A DNA stretch of 64,000 bases, from the NCBI RefSeq assembly GCF_007828865.1, contig NZ_VIVK01000003.1, positions 434,001 to 498,000 of the forward strand, read 5' to 3'. The position numbers and the translations under genes were made by a program. Within the stretch, counting starts at the first letter, position 1. Each line of letters begins with the position of its first letter. The DNA comes from Kribbella amoyensis. GTDB lineage: Bacteria; Actinomycetota; Actinomycetes; Propionibacteriales; Kribbellaceae. The notes below the pieces were generated by a model that saw only the letters and a program-made list of their open reading frames with translations, ran no database searches and was not told where the DNA came from. Below are positions 53,327-63,025 of this stretch, in pieces.

Positions 53327-54349
53327 TCAGTCGCGGAGGAAGTCGATCGGGGTGGTTGCGTCGAAGCCGGAGCAGGCTTCGGCGAGGGCTTCCAGGGTCG
53401 GCTGCTCGGTGCCGTGGACGGCCGGGTCGGGGCGGAAGCGGATCGTGGTCCCGGTGCTTCCCGACGCGTCGACCTTGGTGAGCGGACCCCGCGGCAGGCC
53501 GTGTTCGTACCGTTGGGTCCAGCTGCCCTCGGTCCGGCGGTTGGTGTGCTCGACCCATTCGCTCAGCGCGCACACCACCGACATCCCCGAGCGGCGCCGG
53601 CCGTCCGGGAGTACGGGTGAGTCGGCGACCTCGAAGAAGCGCAGGTCCTTGGTCGCCATGATCGGCTTGACCATCGGCACACCGGCCGCGTCGAAGCGCA
53701 CCGCGGTCCCGCGGCCGTTGTCCTCGACCGAGACGGAGCCGTCGTCGTGCAGGATCACCCGCACGTGGTCCGTCGTCCCCTCGCGCGCCTCGTCCAGGGC
53801 GTACGCGATCACCTCCAGCGCGGCATGCAGCACCCCGCCCTCCGCGTACCGGCTCGCCTCGCGCTGGATCGCGGCGACGTGCTCGGTGTCCGTGCTCGAC
53901 AACCAACTGTGCGTACTCAACCGCATCGTCAGGAACGGGATCGTGTCACCGTCCAGCACATACCGCTCGGTCTCCACGAAGCCGTGCCGTTGCGCGAAGT
54001 ACACGCCCTCCTCGTTCGTCGCGAGGATGACGGTCTCGACCGCGGTGGCGCCCAGTTCGTCCGCCTTCGCCAGCCCCCGCCGGTACAACTGCTCCCCGAA
54101 CCCGCGACGCCGGTACTCGGGCAGGATGCGCGCGATCACGGTCACCGTGTCCGTCTCCCCGTCCGGCGGCCGCACGGTCGAGCAACCGACCGCCGTGTCA
54201 CCGAGGTAGGCAACGTCGAGGTGGTTCCGCTGGACCCGCTCGCGAACCTCGTCGGTCGACAAGGGCGCCGTCGGGATGATCGCGTTGTGCACCTCCCGCC
54301 AGTCCTCGACCAACGCGTCCCCGTCCACCGGCACGATCCTCAGCTCCAC
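53327..54349 (-). CDS. GNAT acetyltransferase fused to a degenerate GyrB-like ATPase domain
   Basis: 340 residues from GTG 54349 (GTG 54352 equally possible). Residues 1-145 are a GNAT domain with the acetyl-CoA loop RRRGFGEQLYRRG (80-92) and FAQRHGF late in the fold. Residues 165-315 follow the GyrB N-terminal GHKL domain closely: LHAALEVIAYALDEA (N-box, 174-188), DGSVSVEDNGRG (203-214), SVVCALSEWVEH (257-268) and GTTIRFRPDP (300-309). In GyrB the N-box reads EVVDNxxDEA; here the Mg-binding Asn is Tyr183 and the Asp before it is Ala. The glycine-rich ATP lid (GLHGVGxS) is replaced by GRRRSGMS. ATP hydrolysis is therefore unlikely; ligand binding may remain. Confidence 0.75.
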   Translation of the reverse strand: MELRIVPVDGDALVEDWREVHNAIIPTAPLSTDEVRERVQRNHLDVAYLGDTAVGCSTVRPPDGETDTVTVIARILPEYRRRGFGEQLYRRGLAKADELGATAVETVILATNEEGVYFAQRHGFVETERYVLDGDTIPFLTMRLSTHSWLSSTDTEHVAAIQREASRYAEGGVLHAALEVIAYALDEAREGTTDHVRVILHDDGSVSVEDNGRGTAVRFDAAGVPMVKPIMATKDLRFFEVADSPVLPDGRRRSGMSVVCALSEWVEHTNRRTEGSWTQRYEHGLPRGPLTKVDASGSTGTTIRFRPDPAVHGTEQPTLEALAEACSGFDATTPIDFLRD

Positions 54350-54400
54350 CACGCCAGCACCCAACCCCGTTCCCCGGCCGCGCGTCAACCCTGTTCCGGC

Positions 54401-54406
54401 GACAAT
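54401..54406 (+). promoter_or_regulatory. -10 box, leaderless start
   Basis: GACAAT lies 5 nt before ATG 54412, with no Shine-Dalgarno site. Confidence 0.4.
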
Positions 54407-54411
54407 GGGGC

Positions 54412-54996
54412 ATGCCGATCGCCCACGAACTGACGCCCGAGGCAACGAACCCGGAACCCGGCCGGGTGATCCTGCTGAACGGCACGTCCAGCTCCGGCAA
54501 GTCGAGCATCGCGGCCGAACTCCTCACCACCCTCGACGGCCCGTGGTACCACCTCGCCGTCGACCACTGCCACCGCATCCGCTCCCGCCACCCGTGGACC
54601 GAGAACGAGTTCCTGCCGATCTTCCAGCGCACCCTCCTCGGCTTCCACCGCATGGTCGCCGGGATGGCAGCGGCGGGGAACGACGTCGTGGTCGACCACA
54701 TCCTCAGCGAGGACTGGCGCCTGACCGACTGCCTCGAAGTCTTCGCCGGACTCGACCTGTACTACATCGGCATCCACTGCTCCCTGCCAGAGCTGGAACG
54801 CCGAGAAGCCGACCGCGGCGACCGCACCACCGGCCTCGCCGCCCTCCAGTACCCCCTGGTCCACCGCCACGGCGTCTACGACCTCGAAGTCGACTCCGAG
54901 AAGCACGACCCCACAACCTGCGCCACCAAAATCCGAACCCGCCTCACCCAATCGCCACCCACCGCCTTCCCCACCCTGAGGAAGTCGTTCGGTTAG
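54412..54996 (+). CDS. Chloramphenicol phosphotransferase-like P-loop kinase
   Basis: 194 residues from ATG 54412. Walker A GTSSSGKSS at 24-32 and a shallow Walker B-like VVVDHILSED. The pattern of WYHLAVD, the VDH around 102-104 and HCSLPELERREADRGDR matches the CPT family (P-loop kinases including chloramphenicol 3-O-phosphotransferase). Most members are uncharacterised, so resistance cannot be assumed. Its end overlaps the convergent GDPD gene by 4 bp. Confidence 0.8.
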   Translation: MPIAHELTPEATNPEPGRVILLNGTSSSGKSSIAAELLTTLDGPWYHLAVDHCHRIRSRHPWTENEFLPIFQRTLLGFHRMVAGMAAAGNDVVVDHILSEDWRLTDCLEVFAGLDLYYIGIHCSLPELERREADRGDRTTGLAALQYPLVHRHGVYDLEVDSEKHDPTTCATKIRTRLTQSPPTAFPTLRKSFG

Positions 54997-55619
54997 GGGA
55001 GGTTGGTGAGGAGGGGGAGGTTTTTGCTGATGATGCCGGTGACGCCCAGGCGGTGGGCTTCGTCCAGGGCCGTGGCGTCGTCGACGGGCCAGGTGAGGAC
55101 GAGGTCGGCTCTTCGGCGGAGTTCGGTGACGAGGGCCGGGGTGAGTAGGCGGAGGTGGACGCAGACACCGTGAACCGGGCTCACTTTGAGTCTGCGGCGG
55201 AGGCGGCTCAACCCACGGCGGCTACCCGCTGAGTACACCAACTTCGCCTCAGGCTGGTCCGCCAACTTCGGCAGCATCCACCAGTGCTGCGTGCACACGG
55301 TGATCGGCGTACCGCGGACCGCCGCGGCCACGCGACCCGCCAAGTACGGGTGGATGCCCTTGAGGTCCAGCATCAGCCGGGGATCCCCGCCGACCGCCGC
55401 GAGCAGATCCGCGAGGGACGGCACCGGGGTACGGCGTACCAGCTCGCCTTGCTCCCACAGGAACCACGGGCCGAGCGTCTTGTGGTGGCGGATCTCCAGG
55501 CGGCCGCGGTACCCGTGCACGTCCGCCTCGACGAGGTCCACGCCCGCGTCGAGGGCTTCCCGGAGTCCGGCCAGATCGTTGCCGGCGCGGTGGGCGACGG
55601 TGACGAGGCGCTCGGACAT
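54993..55619 (-). CDS. Glycerophosphodiester phosphodiesterase (GDPD)
   Basis: 208 residues from ATG 55619. The catalytic marks are VAHRAG (His-Arg, 8-13) and LVEADVHGYRG (Glu, Asp and His), then HHKTLGP. TIM-barrel end SPVHGVCVHLR, ADLVLTWPVDD and GVTGIISKNLP. Shorter than the usual ~240 residues but no core motif is missing. Cytosolic, no signal peptide. Its start overlaps the stop of the upstream flippase-like gene by one base (TGATG), so the pair likely acts together on glycerophospholipids. Confidence 0.83.
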   Translation of the reverse strand: MSERLVTVAHRAGNDLAGLREALDAGVDLVEADVHGYRGRLEIRHHKTLGPWFLWEQGELVRRTPVPSLADLLAAVGGDPRLMLDLKGIHPYLAGRVAAAVRGTPITVCTQHWWMLPKLADQPEAKLVYSAGSRRGLSRLRRRLKVSPVHGVCVHLRLLTPALVTELRRRADLVLTWPVDDATALDEAHRLGVTGIISKNLPLLTNLP

Positions 55620-56605
55620 CAGGCCGTGGCTGGTCGTCTCGACGTTCGCCAGCGCAGCAGCAGTCCACCGCCGCCGAGCAGCAACGCCGGGACCCACGTC
55701 AGCAGCGCCGTCAACGCCACAGCGCCCAGCGCCGCCGTCCACGGCACGCCGATCGCCGCGAGCCCCGCGACGAGCGCACCCTCCCGCGGGGTCGCACCGT
55801 GGACGCCCGGGAGCGCGCCGGCCACCTGGCTCGCGCCGAAGACACCCAGCAGCTGCAGCGCCGACACCGAGTCACCGACCGCGTGGATCGCGCCGACGAG
55901 CAGGCAGACGATGGTCAGCTGGTAGACCACCGACAACGCGACCCCACCGGCGAACACCTTCCACGACGGCCACGGCCAGCGGTCCTTGAAGCCGGGTTTG
56001 CGCCGGTTCACCAGCACCGCGACGGCGAGCACCACCGCGGCACCGACCAGGGCGACACCCATCACGATCGGCGGCAGCGCGACGCCGGACACGACCACGG
56101 CGACGATCATGCCGACCGCGCCGACGAACCGGTCCAGCGCGACCTCGGCGACCGCGGGCGCCCGGCGTACTCCGGTGGTCTCGAGGCGGTGCACCCGCCA
56201 GAGGTCCGCACCCGCGTGCCACGGCGTGATCAACCCCAGGATCTCGCTCTCCGCGTACGCGCGCAGATGCCAGCGCCGGGTCTGTCCGCTCGCCGACAAC
56301 GCGTGCCAGCGCAGCGGACACGCGACGTACTTGCCGATCACGAACGGGAGGAGGCCGACCACGGCGGGCAACAGGGTCAGGTGCGGAACGCGATCGACGT
56401 TCCACGCCGAGACCAGCACGGCCACGACCAGCGCGGCGACCCGGAACAGCCGGTTGTGGAAGAGCGCCTGGCCCCAGCGGAGAGCGGTGGTCGCGGCGCG
56501 GCGGATTCCGCTCACCGGTGCAACGGTGGCGGTGACGGTCGGTGTCTCTTCCGAGGAGGAGAGATTTTCTGATGCCGCCCCAGACGGCACGGGGGAGAGA
56601 TTCAT
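55619..56605 (-). CDS. Lysylphosphatidylglycerol synthase TM-region-like protein (UPF0104)
   Basis: 328 residues from ATG 56605. About eight membrane helices after a 40-residue disordered N-terminus. The family signature region ESEILGLITPWHAGADLWRV and EVALDRFVGAVGM is present, as is PGVHGATPREGALVAGLAAIG. Equivalent to the flippase part of MprF without the lysyl-transferase domain. Likely moves a lipid or polyprenyl-linked substrate; coupled to the GDPD gene. Confidence 0.8.
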   Translation of the reverse strand: MNLSPVPSGAASENLSSSEETPTVTATVAPVSGIRRAATTALRWGQALFHNRLFRVAALVVAVLVSAWNVDRVPHLTLLPAVVGLLPFVIGKYVACPLRWHALSASGQTRRWHLRAYAESEILGLITPWHAGADLWRVHRLETTGVRRAPAVAEVALDRFVGAVGMIVAVVVSGVALPPIVMGVALVGAAVVLAVAVLVNRRKPGFKDRWPWPSWKVFAGGVALSVVYQLTIVCLLVGAIHAVGDSVSALQLLGVFGASQVAGALPGVHGATPREGALVAGLAAIGVPWTAALGAVALTALLTWVPALLLGGGGLLLRWRTSRRPATA

Positions 56606-56732
56606 GGGGGCTTGTGGTTTTCTGGTAATGAGGGGTTCTGGTCGAGCCGGCCGACCCTGGGGGGTCGACTCGCGGGAAAGTCTAGGCAGCAGCACCCAAA
56701 CGCGCAGGTCGAAGCGTTGCGGGAGGGGCAAC

Positions 56733-57461
56733 GTGAGTGCTACACACCGTGACCCCGCACGCAGGATTCTCTTCGAAGCCGCCCTGATCGCGACCGCGGT
56801 CCTGCTGTACTTCCTGGTCCGCGGTCTGATCGAAGAGCGCGTCGCGACGGCCTACGAGAACGCGGAGTCCGTGGTCCGCTTCGAGCAGCGGACCGGCTTC
56901 TTCGTGGAACCCCACCTGCAGCAGTATGTGACCGACCACCCGTCCCTCGTGGTGTTCGCGAACTGGATGTACATCTACGGCCACTGGCCCGTCGTCGTGA
57001 TCACGCTGGCCTGGTTGCTCACCCGGCACCGGACCGAGTACCGGCGGTTCCGCAACGCGATGCTCATCTCGGGGGCGATCGGCCTGGTGATCTTCGCGCT
57101 CTTCCCGGTCGCACCGCCGCGCTTCCTGCCCGGCCTTGGGTTCGTCGACACCGTGACCGAGCAGTCCTCGTCGTACCGGGTCCTGCAGGCGCCCGGGATG
57201 ACGAACCAGTACGCCGCGGTGCCGAGTCTGCATTTCGGCTGGAACCTGCTGATGGGGATCGCCTGGGCGACGGTGGCGACGCATCCGCTGGCTCGCGCGT
57301 TCGGCTGGATCATGCCGCCGGCGATGTTCGCGGCGATCGTGCTGACCGCGAACCACTACATCGTCGACGGCCTGCTCGGTGGGTCGATCGCGCTGTTCGG
57401 GCTCTGGCTCGGGACCCGGATCGACCGCCGGAACCCGGGTCTCAGGCCGGGGCGCCGGTGA
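56733..57461 (+). CDS. PAP2-superfamily membrane protein (inositol phosphotransferase-like)
   Basis: 242 residues from GTG 56733, with GGGAGGGG upstream. Six helices. PAP2-like motifs: FPVAPPRFLPGLGFVDT, AVPSLHFGWNLLMG (motif C2, SxxxH-like with His) and ANHYIVDGLLGG (motif C3 with catalytic His and Asp). This is the aureobasidin-resistance/inositolphosphotransferase-like branch. Probably acts on lipid phosphates. Divergent from the flippase-like gene; overlaps the convergent APH gene by 20 bp. Confidence 0.83.
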   Translation: MSATHRDPARRILFEAALIATAVLLYFLVRGLIEERVATAYENAESVVRFEQRTGFFVEPHLQQYVTDHPSLVVFANWMYIYGHWPVVVITLAWLLTRHRTEYRRFRNAMLISGAIGLVIFALFPVAPPRFLPGLGFVDTVTEQSSSYRVLQAPGMTNQYAAVPSLHFGWNLLMGIAWATVATHPLARAFGWIMPPAMFAAIVLTANHYIVDGLLGGSIALFGLWLGTRIDRRNPGLRPGRR

Positions 57462-58335
57462 CGTCGGCGACCACCTGGTCGATCACGTACTGCGCGTTCG
57501 CGGCGATGCCCGGGTTCGTCTCGCGGTAGTACGGCAGCTGGATCAGCGCCATCGACAGCGCCCTCGCCCGGCCGCGGATCCAGGTGTCCTCGTCGACGTC
57601 GACGGCCGCGCGGAACGCTGTCCGGGCGGGCCCGGTCAGCAGGTTCCACGCCGGGATCAGGTCGCAGGCGGGATCACCGGTCCCCGCCGTCGCGAAGTCG
57701 AGCACGGCAAGCAGCCGGTCCCCCTGGACGAGCAGGTTCGACGGCATCAGGTCGGCGTGGAGCCAGACCGACCCCGTCGCCGGCGCGGCCGCGAGCCCAG
57801 CATCCCAGCCGGCCATCGCCGCCTCGACGTCGATCCAGCCCACCAACTGCCGCAGCGCCGACCGCGTCCCTGCGTCCTGCTCGCTCAACGGCCCACCCCG
57901 GTACGCCGCAGGCGCGTCCGGCAGCGTGATCTTGCGGAACTCCCGGACCAACTCGCCCAGCTCGGTCCCGAGGGTCGTCGAGGTCGTCCCGGCCACCGGG
58001 AGGTCGCCGTCGATCCAGCGGTTCACCGACCATCGCCACGGGTACTCGTCGGCCGGCTCCCCCAGCGCGACCGGGACCGGGATCTCGACCGGCAGCAGCG
58101 GCGCCAACCGCGGCAGCCAGGTGGCCTCCTTGCCGATGTCGTCCACTCCACCCGGGACCCGCGGCAGCCGGACGGTCAGCGAGTCACCGAGCCGGTACAT
58201 CGCGTTCACGGTCCCGCTGGACGGGATCTCGGTCACCGTCAGCCCGGCCCACTCGCGGAACTGACCCGCCACCAGGCGCTGGACCAGTTCCGCGTCGATG
58301 TCCACCTCGTCCGCGTGCATTCTCACGGCCGCCAT
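57442..58335 (-). CDS. Aminoglycoside phosphotransferase-family protein
   Basis: 297 residues from ATG 58335; ATG 58320 (MHADEVDIDAEL) is the other likely start. Complete APH fold: VNAMYRLGDSLTVRLPR (P-loop and Lys-type strand), WLHADLMPSNLLV with the catalytic Asp, and LLAVLDFATAGTGDPACDL with the metal-binding Asp. One of the widespread actinobacterial members with a MHADEV start; substrates are unknown, so no resistance is claimed. Confidence 0.85.
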   Translation of the reverse strand: MAAVRMHADEVDIDAELVQRLVAGQFREWAGLTVTEIPSSGTVNAMYRLGDSLTVRLPRVPGGVDDIGKEATWLPRLAPLLPVEIPVPVALGEPADEYPWRWSVNRWIDGDLPVAGTTSTTLGTELGELVREFRKITLPDAPAAYRGGPLSEQDAGTRSALRQLVGWIDVEAAMAGWDAGLAAAPATGSVWLHADLMPSNLLVQGDRLLAVLDFATAGTGDPACDLIPAWNLLTGPARTAFRAAVDVDEDTWIRGRARALSMALIQLPYYRETNPGIAANAQYVIDQVVADVTGAPA

Positions 58336-58457
58336 CCCACCGGATCGGGCCGTCCTTGTCGAGCCGATTCCCACCAATTACGGGCCGAAGGCAACCAACT
58401 GGTCCGAACCTTCCGCCGAGTTCGCGCGTCTGCACCGGCATGAGAGGGTGGGCGGTC

Positions 58458-59246
58458 GTGCGGGTGCGGAACTGGTTACTGGGCGTCGGGCTGCTCGGTG
58501 CGACGGTGTGGTCGTTCGTGGTGAGCGCGTCGATGCCGAGCTGGTTCGACCCGAGCGAGGACTGCGCGCTGACCGCGTCGAGCGACGGCGTCTACGGCAG
58601 CAGCGCCGGGATCGACATCCGGACCAGCTGGTTCCCGCCCCGGGCCGTCTGCGACTTCGGCAGTGGCGAGAAGTACGAGTTCATCTCCCAGGCCGAATCG
58701 GTGACGCTCACCGTTCTCGCGGTCGTGCTCGCGCTCGCGCTGGTCGCCGGGCTCGTCCTGGCGGTCCGCGGACTCACGGCGACCGGCGGCGTGATCCGGG
58801 CCGCCGACGCGATCAACCTCCGCCGCCGGCTGCTCACCCATCTCGCCGTCGCCGCGTTCCTGGGCTACGTGGCGAGCTCCGGTCTGGTCATCGGCCAGGT
58901 GATCGGGATCATGCTCACCGGTCCGCCGGGCCTGGTCACGCTCGTCGTCGGCGCCCTGGTCGTGCTCACAGCCGTCACCACCGCGGCCGACCGCGCGTAC
59001 GGTCCGCTGCCGAGCACGGCCACCGACTCGTACCGGCGCGGGACGACCGCGGCGGTCCTGGTCGTCCTCGTCGTGACAACCATCGCGGTCGTCAACTTCC
59101 CGCTGCGCGACCTCGACGTCGCGATCCCCGGCGCGGCCACGTACGCCGCGGTGGTGGCGGTCCAGTGGTTCAGACCGCGCCGATCGTCGCTCCCGGTACC
59201 TGCGGACAGTCCAGCAACTGCTGATCGGTCCGCCGAGCCCCGGTGA
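58458..59246 (+). CDS. Five-helix membrane protein of unknown function
   Basis: 262 residues from GTG 58458, with AGAGGG 9 nt upstream; ATG 58440 would add six residues. Helix 1 (about 6-24), an extracytoplasmic loop with two Cys (SEDCALTAS and RAVCDFG) that could form a disulfide, then four further helices. The C-terminus is Pro/Arg/Ser rich. No family recognised. Its last 77 bp overlap the convergent LacI gene. Confidence 0.6.
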   Translation: MRVRNWLLGVGLLGATVWSFVVSASMPSWFDPSEDCALTASSDGVYGSSAGIDIRTSWFPPRAVCDFGSGEKYEFISQAESVTLTVLAVVLALALVAGLVLAVRGLTATGGVIRAADAINLRRRLLTHLAVAAFLGYVASSGLVIGQVIGIMLTGPPGLVTLVVGALVVLTAVTTAADRAYGPLPSTATDSYRRGTTAAVLVVLVVTTIAVVNFPLRDLDVAIPGAATYAAVVAVQWFRPRRSSLPVPADSPATADRSAEPR

Positions 59247-60189
59247 TCTGGTCGACCAGCAGACGCACCGCCCGCCGGCCGAGCTCGCGACGCGGTACCT
59301 CGAACCCGCTCACGTCCGGCCGGCCCTTCGGCTGACCCAGCACGGCGAGCGACAGGTCCTCGGGGAGCCGGAGACCCGCCTCCTCCGCAGCGGCCAGGGC
59401 GGCTCTCGACAAGACGCCGAGATCGGTCTCCTCCACGACGACCGCGGTCACGCCCTCGTCCCGCCATTTCGTCAGCAGTGCGGCATCCACGTCGGCGGAC
59501 TGCGCGCGCACGACAACACGGCGTACCGGCAGGCGCGCTCGACGGATCGCGGCAAGCACGCCCTTCTCCCGGTCCGTCGAGGACAGCGCGTCCTCCACGG
59601 AGCGCAGGTACCGGATCTCGCGGTGTCCCAGCTCGAGCAGCCGCTCCACCACCGCGGCCGACGCGGCCACGTAGTCCACGCCGACGAACGGGATCCGGCC
59701 GCCGAGCTCGTCCCGCCGGCCGACGTACACCAGCGGGAAGTCGCCGTGCAGCAGCCAGTCGATCGGCTCCTCCGGCACATGCCGGCCGAAGAACACACAG
59801 CCGTCGGCGACCCTGGTCCGGCGGATCGCGGTCTTCGCGTCGGTGCGCGCGTCCAGCCCGCCGGTCCCGGTGAACAGCACCAGGTCCTGGCCGAGCGCGG
59901 TCGCCTCCGCCTCGATCCCGGCCAGGATCGGGTAGTAGAAGTCGTCCAGCTCGATCGGGAACGCCGAGGCGAACGTGTACACCCCGAGCAGGTGGTTGCG
60001 GGCCGAGGCGAGCCGGGTCGCGACCGGATCGGGGACGTAGCCGAGCTGCTCGGCCGCGGCCAGCACCCGCTGCCGGGTCGGCTCCGACAGCCGGGTACCT
60101 TCGGTGTTCCCGGACAGCACCAGGGACACGGTCGTCTGCGACACCCCGGCGACCGCCGCGATGTCCGCCTGCCGGGGAGCTCTCGCCAT
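59170..60189 (-). CDS. LacI-family transcriptional regulator
   Basis: 339 residues from ATG 60189. HTH at 7-30 (ADIAAVAGVSQTTVSLVLSG), hinge region near 40-62 (RQRVLAAAEQLGYVPDPVA) and a periplasmic-binding-type ligand domain to the end (GVDYVAASAAVVERLLELGH, LGQPKGRPDVSGFEVPRREL). Probably senses a sugar or similar small molecule. Own promoter visible within the 3' end region of the upstream oxidase gene. No sugar transporter is next to it. Confidence 0.9.
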   Translation of the reverse strand: MARAPRQADIAAVAGVSQTTVSLVLSGNTEGTRLSEPTRQRVLAAAEQLGYVPDPVATRLASARNHLLGVYTFASAFPIELDDFYYPILAGIEAEATALGQDLVLFTGTGGLDARTDAKTAIRRTRVADGCVFFGRHVPEEPIDWLLHGDFPLVYVGRRDELGGRIPFVGVDYVAASAAVVERLLELGHREIRYLRSVEDALSSTDREKGVLAAIRRARLPVRRVVVRAQSADVDAALLTKWRDEGVTAVVVEETDLGVLSRAALAAAEEAGLRLPEDLSLAVLGQPKGRPDVSGFEVPRRELGRRAVRLLVDQITGARRTDQQLLDCPQVPGATIGAV

Positions 60190-60195
60190 CCCGGC

Positions 60196-60215
60196 AGTGT
60201 AGCTAATACGGATTA
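60196..60215 (-). promoter_or_regulatory. LacI gene promoter with overlapping operator
   Basis: On the minus strand TACACT (60201-60196) lies 6 nt before ATG 60189, a leaderless arrangement. TAATACGGATTA (60204-60215) next to it is a near-perfect dyad with central CG, the usual form of LacI-family operators, so autoregulation is likely. Confidence 0.55.
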
Positions 60216-61592
60216 CTTCGAGCCATTCCCGGCGGGTCGGATGTTCTGGTTCAACCGGAACACGTTGCCCGGGTCGTACTCCGCCTTGATCACCGCGAGC
60301 CGCTCGTAGTTGTCCTTGCCGAACCCGGCCACCACCCGGTCCCGGCCCTCGTCGCCGATGAAGTTCAGGTACACCGCGCCGGTCGCCCACGGCCGGACGT
60401 CCTCGCACAGTGCGCGGGCCCAGCCGATCCCCTGGCCGTCCTCGGCCGGATCCGCCCACAGCCCGAACGGGTGGATCACCCAGTCGGCACTGCGGTGCGG
60501 CAACGGCCACCGGTCCGCGTCCCGAGCCACGGCGCCGCCCCACGGTACGGCGATCTGCTGCGACGGCGACGGGGCCGGCATGTCGGCGGACCGGTCACAG
60601 AAGGCCTGGACCGCCTCGTCCGGGAACGCCGACAGGTGCTCGGCCGACCAGTAGTTGCGGAAGCCCGGTGGATCGTCGAGCGCGGACTGCAGGCCGGCGT
60701 ACGGCAGCTCGGCGATCATCGCGCCCTCCGGAGCGAGCTCGAGCATCGGCCGGAACACCTCGCGCGCCTCGGCCTCGTGGCCCGCGTAGATCGCCCCGGC
60801 CGCGACCAGGAGCCGGCCGTGCAGGTGCTCGGGTACGAACTCCTCCGGCGGCCCGGTGAGGTAGATCGCGCCACCGCCGAGGTCGTCGGGCGCGCCGCTG
60901 GTGATCAGGTCGCGGTATGCACGGACGATCTCGGGACCCGATTCGGCCGGCCACAGCAGCAACATCAGTGTGACCGCCGGTAGCGGGCGGACCCGGAAGG
61001 TCAGCGAGGTGGCGACCCCGAAGTTGCCACCACCACCGTGCAGCGCCCAGAACAGCTCGGGGTTCTCGTCCTCGGAGGCGGTCACGGTCCGCCCGTCGGC
61101 GGTGACCAGCTCGACCGCGACGAGGTTGTCGCAGGCCAGTCCCCACTTCCGTTCGAGCCAGCCGGATCCGCCACCCAGGGTGAGCCCGGCGATCCCGGTG
61201 GTGGACACCCGGCCGCCGGTGGTGGCCAGCCCGTACGGCTGACACGCCCGGTCCAGATCGGCCCAGAGCGCGCCGCCCTCGACCCGGGCCAGACCCGCCT
61301 CCGGATCCACCTGGACCCCGTTGAGGCGGCGCAGGTCGACGACCAGCCCGCCGTTGCTCAGCCCGGTCCCGGCCACCCCGTGACCACCTCCCCGGACCGC
61401 GATCTCCAGCCCCTGGTTCACGCCGTACCGGATCGCCGCGGCCACGTCGGCGGCCGACTCGCACTGGGCGATCAGGCCCGGCCGTTTGTCGATCATCGCG
61501 TTGAAGATCGTCCGCGCCTCGTCGTAGTCCGGCTCACCGGCCCGCAGTACCCGGCCGCCGAACCCGACCGGTTGTGCCATCGTCTCTGCCAT
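60213..61592 (-). CDS. FAD-linked oxidase (BBE-type, PCMH fold)
   Basis: 459 residues from ATG 61592; ATG 61580 is possible. FAD_binding_4 domain (about 35-205): GLEIAVRGGGHGVAGTGL carries the His used in 8-alpha-N-histidyl FAD linkage, and GLTLGGGSGWLERKWG follows. Berberine-bridge C-terminal domain (about 395-459) with YLNFIGDEG and KAEYDPGNVFRLNQNI. The second covalent site (Cys) is not seen: GLACDNLV has a Cys in the equivalent region. Oxidises alcohols or sugars; in actinobacteria often in secondary metabolism. The LacI gene follows 23 bp downstream. Confidence 0.88.
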   Translation of the reverse strand: MAETMAQPVGFGGRVLRAGEPDYDEARTIFNAMIDKRPGLIAQCESAADVAAAIRYGVNQGLEIAVRGGGHGVAGTGLSNGGLVVDLRRLNGVQVDPEAGLARVEGGALWADLDRACQPYGLATTGGRVSTTGIAGLTLGGGSGWLERKWGLACDNLVAVELVTADGRTVTASEDENPELFWALHGGGGNFGVATSLTFRVRPLPAVTLMLLLWPAESGPEIVRAYRDLITSGAPDDLGGGAIYLTGPPEEFVPEHLHGRLLVAAGAIYAGHEAEAREVFRPMLELAPEGAMIAELPYAGLQSALDDPPGFRNYWSAEHLSAFPDEAVQAFCDRSADMPAPSPSQQIAVPWGGAVARDADRWPLPHRSADWVIHPFGLWADPAEDGQGIGWARALCEDVRPWATGAVYLNFIGDEGRDRVVAGFGKDNYERLAVIKAEYDPGNVFRLNQNIRPAGNGSK

Positions 61593-61768
61593 CTCGGGAA
61601 CGCCCCCTCTTGCCTGACCCCTGATCCCCGTGCACATGGCCGATGCTCCGCCGACCATCTCCCCCGGTCAACGCCCCCGATCCCTGGCACACAAGGCGTT
61701 CCCGGTCCGCGACGCACCGTCGCGTGGTCCAGCACCTGGGCCGAGCACCCGGCAACCGTTTGCACAGC

Positions 61769-61774
61769 TAGGGT
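61769..61774 (+). promoter_or_regulatory. -10 box of the LarA-like gene
   Basis: TAGGGT lies 7 nt before ATG 61782; GGGTGGGG in the same stretch could also act as ribosome binding site. Confidence 0.35.
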
Positions 61775-61781
61775 GGGGCGC

Positions 61782-63025
<1,244 letters not shown>

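Follow-up and report, generated by a model that had tools for sequence, protein, structure and literature searches.

The 24-kDa unit of the DNA gyrase subunit GyrB (GyrB24) binds novobiocin on its own, as seen in structures such as 1aj6 and 7ptf, while GyrB dimerises through an N-terminal arm (GyrB43) and carries Gln335 and Lys337 in its transducer domain. Degenerate GHKL domains are known from the topoisomerase VI B-like proteins, which have kept the fold with changed ATP-binding motifs and have a role in eukaryotic meiosis. In GyrB, Asn46 is a ligand of the Mg ion (PMC4159350) and the triphosphate is held by Asn46, Lys103, Gln335 and Lys337 (PMC4388272). Fusions of GNAT acetyltransferases with ligand-binding or catalytically inactive domains are a recurrent feature of actinobacteria (PMC6434083; PMC8556138), and the type III GNATs of these organisms are switched by cAMP and ACT domains (PMC8556138; PMC6434083).

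The window analysed here is the whole 64,000 nt stretch of DNA from the soil bacterium Kribbella amoyensis, in which the product of one minus-strand gene (53327-54349) consists of a GNAT domain and, C-terminal to it, a GHKL domain of the GyrB 24-kDa type. The open reading frame has 340 codons and is uninterrupted. A sequence-only reading of the window had placed the gene at these coordinates, which are right except that the start is probably GTG at 54352, one codon upstream, because a V-x-E-L-R beginning is common to the orthologues; GTG at 54349 is the next candidate, and the gene accordingly covers 53327-54352 with 340 or 341 codons plus the stop. Full-length orthologues occur in four other Kribbella genomes, at 65-74% identity. 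The GNAT domain (53918-54349, residues 1-144) matches Pfam PF00583 over residues 20-124 (E 4.7e-9, above the gathering score), the solved structures 2ge3 and 2ae6 in a PDB search, and separate GNAT genes of other Kribbella genomes at 53-68% identity. The profile match is joined by the acetyl-CoA-binding motif R-x-x-G-x-G of the superfamily, here RRRGFG (54095-54112, minus strand, residues 80-85), which has been kept in both fused and separate copies and is intact in all fusions.

The remainder of the protein (53330-53914, minus strand, residues 146-340) is related to GyrB. The general Pfam model HATPase_c matches residues 173-307 slightly under its cut-off, an NCBIfam GyrB model matches residues 172-321 (E 1.3e-22), and solved GyrB chains align to residues 169-324 (E 7e-19); by these searches the similarity (E about 1e-19 to 1e-22) is far above chance level. 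Only positions 28-191 of the NCBIfam gyrB profiles are matched, far under the cut-off. An AlphaFold2 model of the whole protein predicts two domains well (pLDDT 84), the nearest solved fold to the second being GyrB24 (Z 21.2 across 176 residues), and when the domain was re-modelled with a 40-row alignment (pLDDT 88.6) the match rose to Z 22.9 across 175 residues; the matched structures include 1aj6 and 7ptf. The GHKL ATPase sub-domain fold of GyrB and ParE is thus predicted, without the transducer (and its catalytic Lys337), TOPRIM and tail, as the protein stops where GyrB24 stops. The profile, the solved chains and the fold, with PF00583 for the first half, all bear out the earlier claim of a GNAT joined to a GyrB-type GHKL domain, and the comparison with GyrB that had been suggested as a check returned the GHKL fold with GyrB24 nearest (Z 21-23).

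The resemblance to the GyrB 24-kDa sub-domain extends from the fold to about 30% identity throughout and to Glu42, Glu50, Asp73, Arg76, Gly77 and Thr165 (E. coli GyrB numbering), while Asn46 has become Tyr, Asp45 Ala and Lys103 Phe, the ATP lid has been rebuilt, and the domain is encoded alone or as part of an enzyme fusion. How far these features are shared was examined in an alignment of 94 sequences, 89 separate and five fused. The N-box, EVIAYALDE (53789-53815, minus strand, residues 179-187), holds Glu179 at Glu42, Ala182 at Asp45, Tyr183 at Asn46 and Glu187 at Glu50, and DNGRG (53708-53722, minus strand, residues 210-214) holds Asp210, Arg213 and Gly214 at Asp73, Arg76 and Gly77, its D, G, R and G being invariant. 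These motifs, together with SVVCALSEWVE, GTTIRFRPDP, the lid segment GRRRSGMS and the changes to Tyr183 and Ala182, had been quoted exactly in the sequence-only reading. The positions of Glu42, Glu50, Asp73, Gly75, Arg76, Gly77, Arg136 and Thr165 are invariant in all 94 sequences, Arg136 being represented by Arg272 (53534-53536, minus strand) and Thr165 by Thr301 of the TGT motif (53447-53455, minus strand, residues 299-301). In that motif Gly300 and Thr301 are invariant, and residue 299 is Thr in 5/5 fusions and 85/89 stand-alone copies. Strict constraint on the adenine side of the pocket (Glu42, Glu50, Asp73, Arg76, Gly77, Thr165 and also Arg136) is apparent from this alignment. The same 94 sequences share His147, Trp149, Lys228, Pro229, Asp235, Arg237, Arg253, His268 and Asn270. 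Within the remodelled lid region (53579-53647, minus strand, residues 235-257), where Phe239 stands at Lys103, the residues Asp235, Arg237, Arg253, Gly255 and Ser257 are invariant.

The phosphate side is different. An active GHKL ATPase has an N-box Glu and a Mg-binding Asn; here the Glu (Glu179) is present in 94/94 sequences and the Asn is Tyr (Tyr183) in 94/94, with Ala at Asp45 in 92/94 and Phe or Tyr at Lys103 in 94/94. ATP hydrolysis of the canonical type is very unlikely, judging from these residues, because Asn46 and Lys103 of the four GyrB triphosphate ligands have been replaced and Gln335 and Lys337 are missing along with the transducer domain. The GHKL half had been called apparently dead, which is sound as regards canonical ATPase activity and wrong as regards degeneration of a single copy, since the substitutions are invariant family-wide and Glu179 is intact; it should rather be read as a conserved, non-canonical pocket with the catalytic Glu retained. 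Gene decay was rejected on the same invariance and on dN/dS values of about 0.3-0.5. The topoisomerase VI B-like proteins are a parallel in keeping the fold with changed ATP-binding motifs, but they belong to another GHKL branch, serve eukaryotic meiosis and have no transferase fusion.

Sequence comparisons place the GHKL half in a conserved, mostly stand-alone actinobacterial family with Tyr for Asn in the N-box, here termed GHKL-Y. Among 84,980 species genomes scanned, 170 relatives turned up; 80 of these were retrieved, and in this set only the two Kribbella fusions were not separate genes. The stand-alone genes encode about 190-240 aa and are annotated, where annotation is given, as 'ATP-binding protein' or 'DNA gyrase', while Pfam coverage consists of the general HATPase_c model alone, under its cut-off. 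A family profile separates members (E 1e-50 to 1e-99) from true GyrB and ParE (about 1e-34 at best). What emerges is a conserved group of GyrB-like pseudo-ATPases for which databases offer these labels only; the literature searched on standalone or degenerate GHKL proteins, GyrB-like proteins, decoys and self-resistance yielded nothing on it. All hosts found are Actinomycetota, including Streptomyces, Kitasatospora, Nonomuraea, Amycolatopsis, Nocardia, Nocardioides, Terrabacter, Arthrobacter, Cellulomonas and others. The distribution is patchy, with the family in 6/297 genomes of the class sample (about 2%) and in 43/393 Streptomyces genomes (about 11%), the genus having been inferred via named relatives. 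A phage origin or a defence role was rejected: no relative was confirmed in viral contigs, PADLOC (defence systems) gave no match, and PHROG matches were limited to phage topoisomerases and generic acetyltransferases.

The stand-alone gene can be mobile. In one Streptomyces genome (G1461) it lies inside a 4,902-bp element present in three copies (L188:4682-9583; L189:683-5584; L190:4637-9538) that are 99.98-100% identical and end in near-perfect 15-bp terminal inverted repeats (GGGCTGTTCTTGAGT / GGACTGTTCTTGAGT). The element also has transposase-like and tyrosine-recombinase-like ORFs, neither of which was matched by Pfam, and it is read as a transposon with the lone GHKL gene as cargo. The lone domain probably benefits the host by itself, because it is carried alone as cargo. 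Across 66 neighbourhoods and Pfam scans of 85 neighbours, no conserved operon partner or shared pathway was detected, and neither gyrase genes nor biosynthetic-cluster genes were among the recurrent neighbours; those that do recur are lineage-specific, namely LysR in seven and a membrane protein in four Streptomyces. In the latter four (L044, L048, L061, L076) a gene for a membrane-protein-like product of about 610 aa ends 4 to 22 nt inside the GHKL gene, an overlap that suggests translational coupling.

The fusion to GNAT is rare, as had been supposed when the architecture was called non-standard. It occurs in 5/38 Kribbella genomes, in 0/256 genomes from other genera of the order and in 0/296 other genomes of the class sample. 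The fusions form a single clade in the trees of both domains (SH-aLRT 99 for GHKL; 97/93 for GNAT), which places a single origin within Kribbella. The sister group of the fused GNATs in the GNAT tree consists of GNAT-only genes at the same chromosomal site, with shared flanks comprising an aminoglycoside-phosphotransferase-like gene, a LacI-type regulator, an oxidoreductase and further genes, and in another Kribbella genome (G097) the GHKL domain alone occupies the syntenic locus. Extensions past the stop of GNAT-only genes (L011, L122, L125) turned out to be chance similarity, and no broken fusion remnants were found beside such genes. Nei-Gojobori dN/dS values are about 0.26-0.55 for the GNAT half and 0.27-0.41 for the GHKL half; purifying selection acts on both. 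As separate genes, the two domains show no clear association in Kribbella (14 genomes with both, 15 with GNAT only, one with GHKL only, three with neither).

A second fusion is carried by three genomes that belong to a single genus of a different actinobacterial family. In it DUF3626 (PF12294, E 2.5e-64) precedes a GHKL domain with Tyr for Asn (L145:3109-4632 on the minus strand, in G901:C14; G925:C5:67091-68605; G927:C1:2622578-2624044). These proteins have a C-terminal pseudo-GHKL domain of the same family, whose AY N-box is intact or almost intact, and differ from the Kribbella protein in having DUF3626 instead of GNAT at the N-terminus. The tree separates the two kinds of fusion, and on this evidence they arose independently. 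In the rest of that family (f9) DUF3626 and GHKL-Y are separate genes, with both in 16 genomes, GHKL only in 8, DUF3626 only in 45 and neither in 116; this co-occurrence (Fisher p 3e-4, uncorrected for kinship) is only suggestive. SopF is an ADP-ribosyltransferase, and if its remote kinship to DUF3626 and this activity hold, DUF3626 may be an ADP-ribosyltransferase-type domain, in which case both fusion partners would be group-transfer enzymes with adenine-containing donors. The kinship is indicated by a paper that describes DUF3626 in SopF, a Salmonella protein (PMC6682159). Two independent fusions to different enzyme-like domains and carriage by a transposon are direct, testable hints of function.

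The best reading of these features is that the GHKL half is a non-hydrolysing, ligand-binding pseudo-ATPase, which would capture a small molecule for a group-transfer enzyme or switch such an enzyme. The half keeps the adenine or inhibitor side of the pocket, and since Mg-triphosphate would not be held as in gyrase, it would act via binding, without hydrolysis. A small molecule fitting the old adenine pocket would be captured. The GNAT tethered to the pocket in Kribbella would acetylate the captured molecule or be aimed at it, whereas for the lone domain binding itself would be the function. Our tentative preference goes to capture followed by modification, with the GHKL domain binding a small molecule and presenting it to the fused transferase. 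The invariant adenine side, the lost phosphate ligands, the purifying selection, the two independent fusions, the transposon cargo and the patchy distribution point in this direction, while the neighbours, which share no pathway, and the conserved catalytic Glu, unexpected in a pure binder, do not. To our knowledge, GNAT substrates are not predictable from sequence. Among the three hypotheses previously offered for this protein, an acetyltransferase tuned or directed by a ligand is the best fit.

The other form of the best reading, an allosteric switch in which a metabolite, adenine-containing or not, is sensed by the pseudo-ATPase and so turns an acetyltransferase for proteins or small molecules on or off, is possible though somewhat unlikely. 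It would agree with the joining of actinobacterial GNATs to ligand-binding or inactive domains (PMC6434083; PMC8556138), with a pocket that is conserved yet not ATPase-like and with the intact CoA motif in every fusion. The nearest models, the type III cAMP-GNATs MtPat and MsPat and the ACT-GNAT AAPatA, likewise combine a GNAT with a small-ligand-type domain. A GNAT fused to a pocket-bearing domain is observed here too, but that domain is GyrB-like and C-terminal, any ligand regulation is putative, and the GNAT is not closely related in the searches run. Against a switch are the GNAT-first order and the absence of the known ligand-regulated Pat enzymes from the PDB matches to the GNAT half, and a domain that is mostly alone, patchy and transposon-borne suits an accessory trait over core metabolite sensing.

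Capture of a small molecule also allows a special case, unproven and in our estimate quite unlikely, in which the GyrB 24-kDa unit has been turned into a transposon-borne binder of gyrase-inhibiting natural products, a target mimic to which GNAT and DUF3626 were separately tethered to disarm the captured drug. Such a module would fit with the retained Arg136, Asp73 and Thr165, with the kind of enzymes that are fused and with a distribution that is patchy and mobile. Of the aminocoumarin contacts of GyrB24, which we take to be Asn46, Asp73, Arg76, Ile78, Pro79, Arg136 and Thr165, the family keeps Asp73, Arg76, Arg136 and Thr165, but the changes of Asn46 to Tyr, Ile78 to Thr and Pro79 to Ala or Asp do not fit, and no biosynthetic-cluster gene recurs nearby; the aminocoumarin binding once suggested for this protein is conceivable. 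Should the pocket bind gyrase inhibitors, part of the drug target would have been made into a resistance mechanism. At Arg136, the classical aminocoumarin-resistance site, the GyrB of K. amoyensis itself (L002, G000:C1:1741213-1741677) has Thr, unlike the Arg of the pseudo-GHKL family.

Somewhat less probable still is that the domain remains a nucleotide hydrolase or another enzyme, with Glu179 as the base and Tyr183, Lys228, Arg237 and Arg253 replacing the lost phosphate and metal ligands. The invariance of these residues and Asp235 in 94 sequences resembles the constraint on an active site, but an equivalent of Lys337 and Gln335, a GxxGxG lid and the Mg-binding Asn are all lacking. A decoy role, with the domain attaching to gyrase or rivalling GyrB for its partners and the GNAT acetylating gyrase, is improbable: direct homology to GyrB is in its favour, but the domain has neither the transducer nor the N-terminal arm of GyrB, and gyrase genes do not recur beside it, leaving the suggestion of a decoy that binds gyrase itself without support. 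Equally improbable is an accident of gene order that joined two independent domains with no joint function, for although neither half needs the other, because each stands alone at the syntenic locus in sister species, five species retain the fusion (65-74% identity; dN/dS about 0.3-0.5 in both halves), and the GHKL domain has entered a second fusion, with a different enzyme-like partner.

The syntenic Kribbella block as a whole (window 53327-62999; L118-L124, L129) differs between species in this respect: some have the fusion in it, others only the GNAT or only the GHKL gene. A divergent gene about 60 nt from the fusion (window 54412-54996, plus strand) encodes a kinase-like protein of the chloramphenicol-phosphotransferase type, with a Walker A motif (GTSSSGKSS) recognised by eye, and its homologue likewise adjoins the fusion in a further genome (G058).
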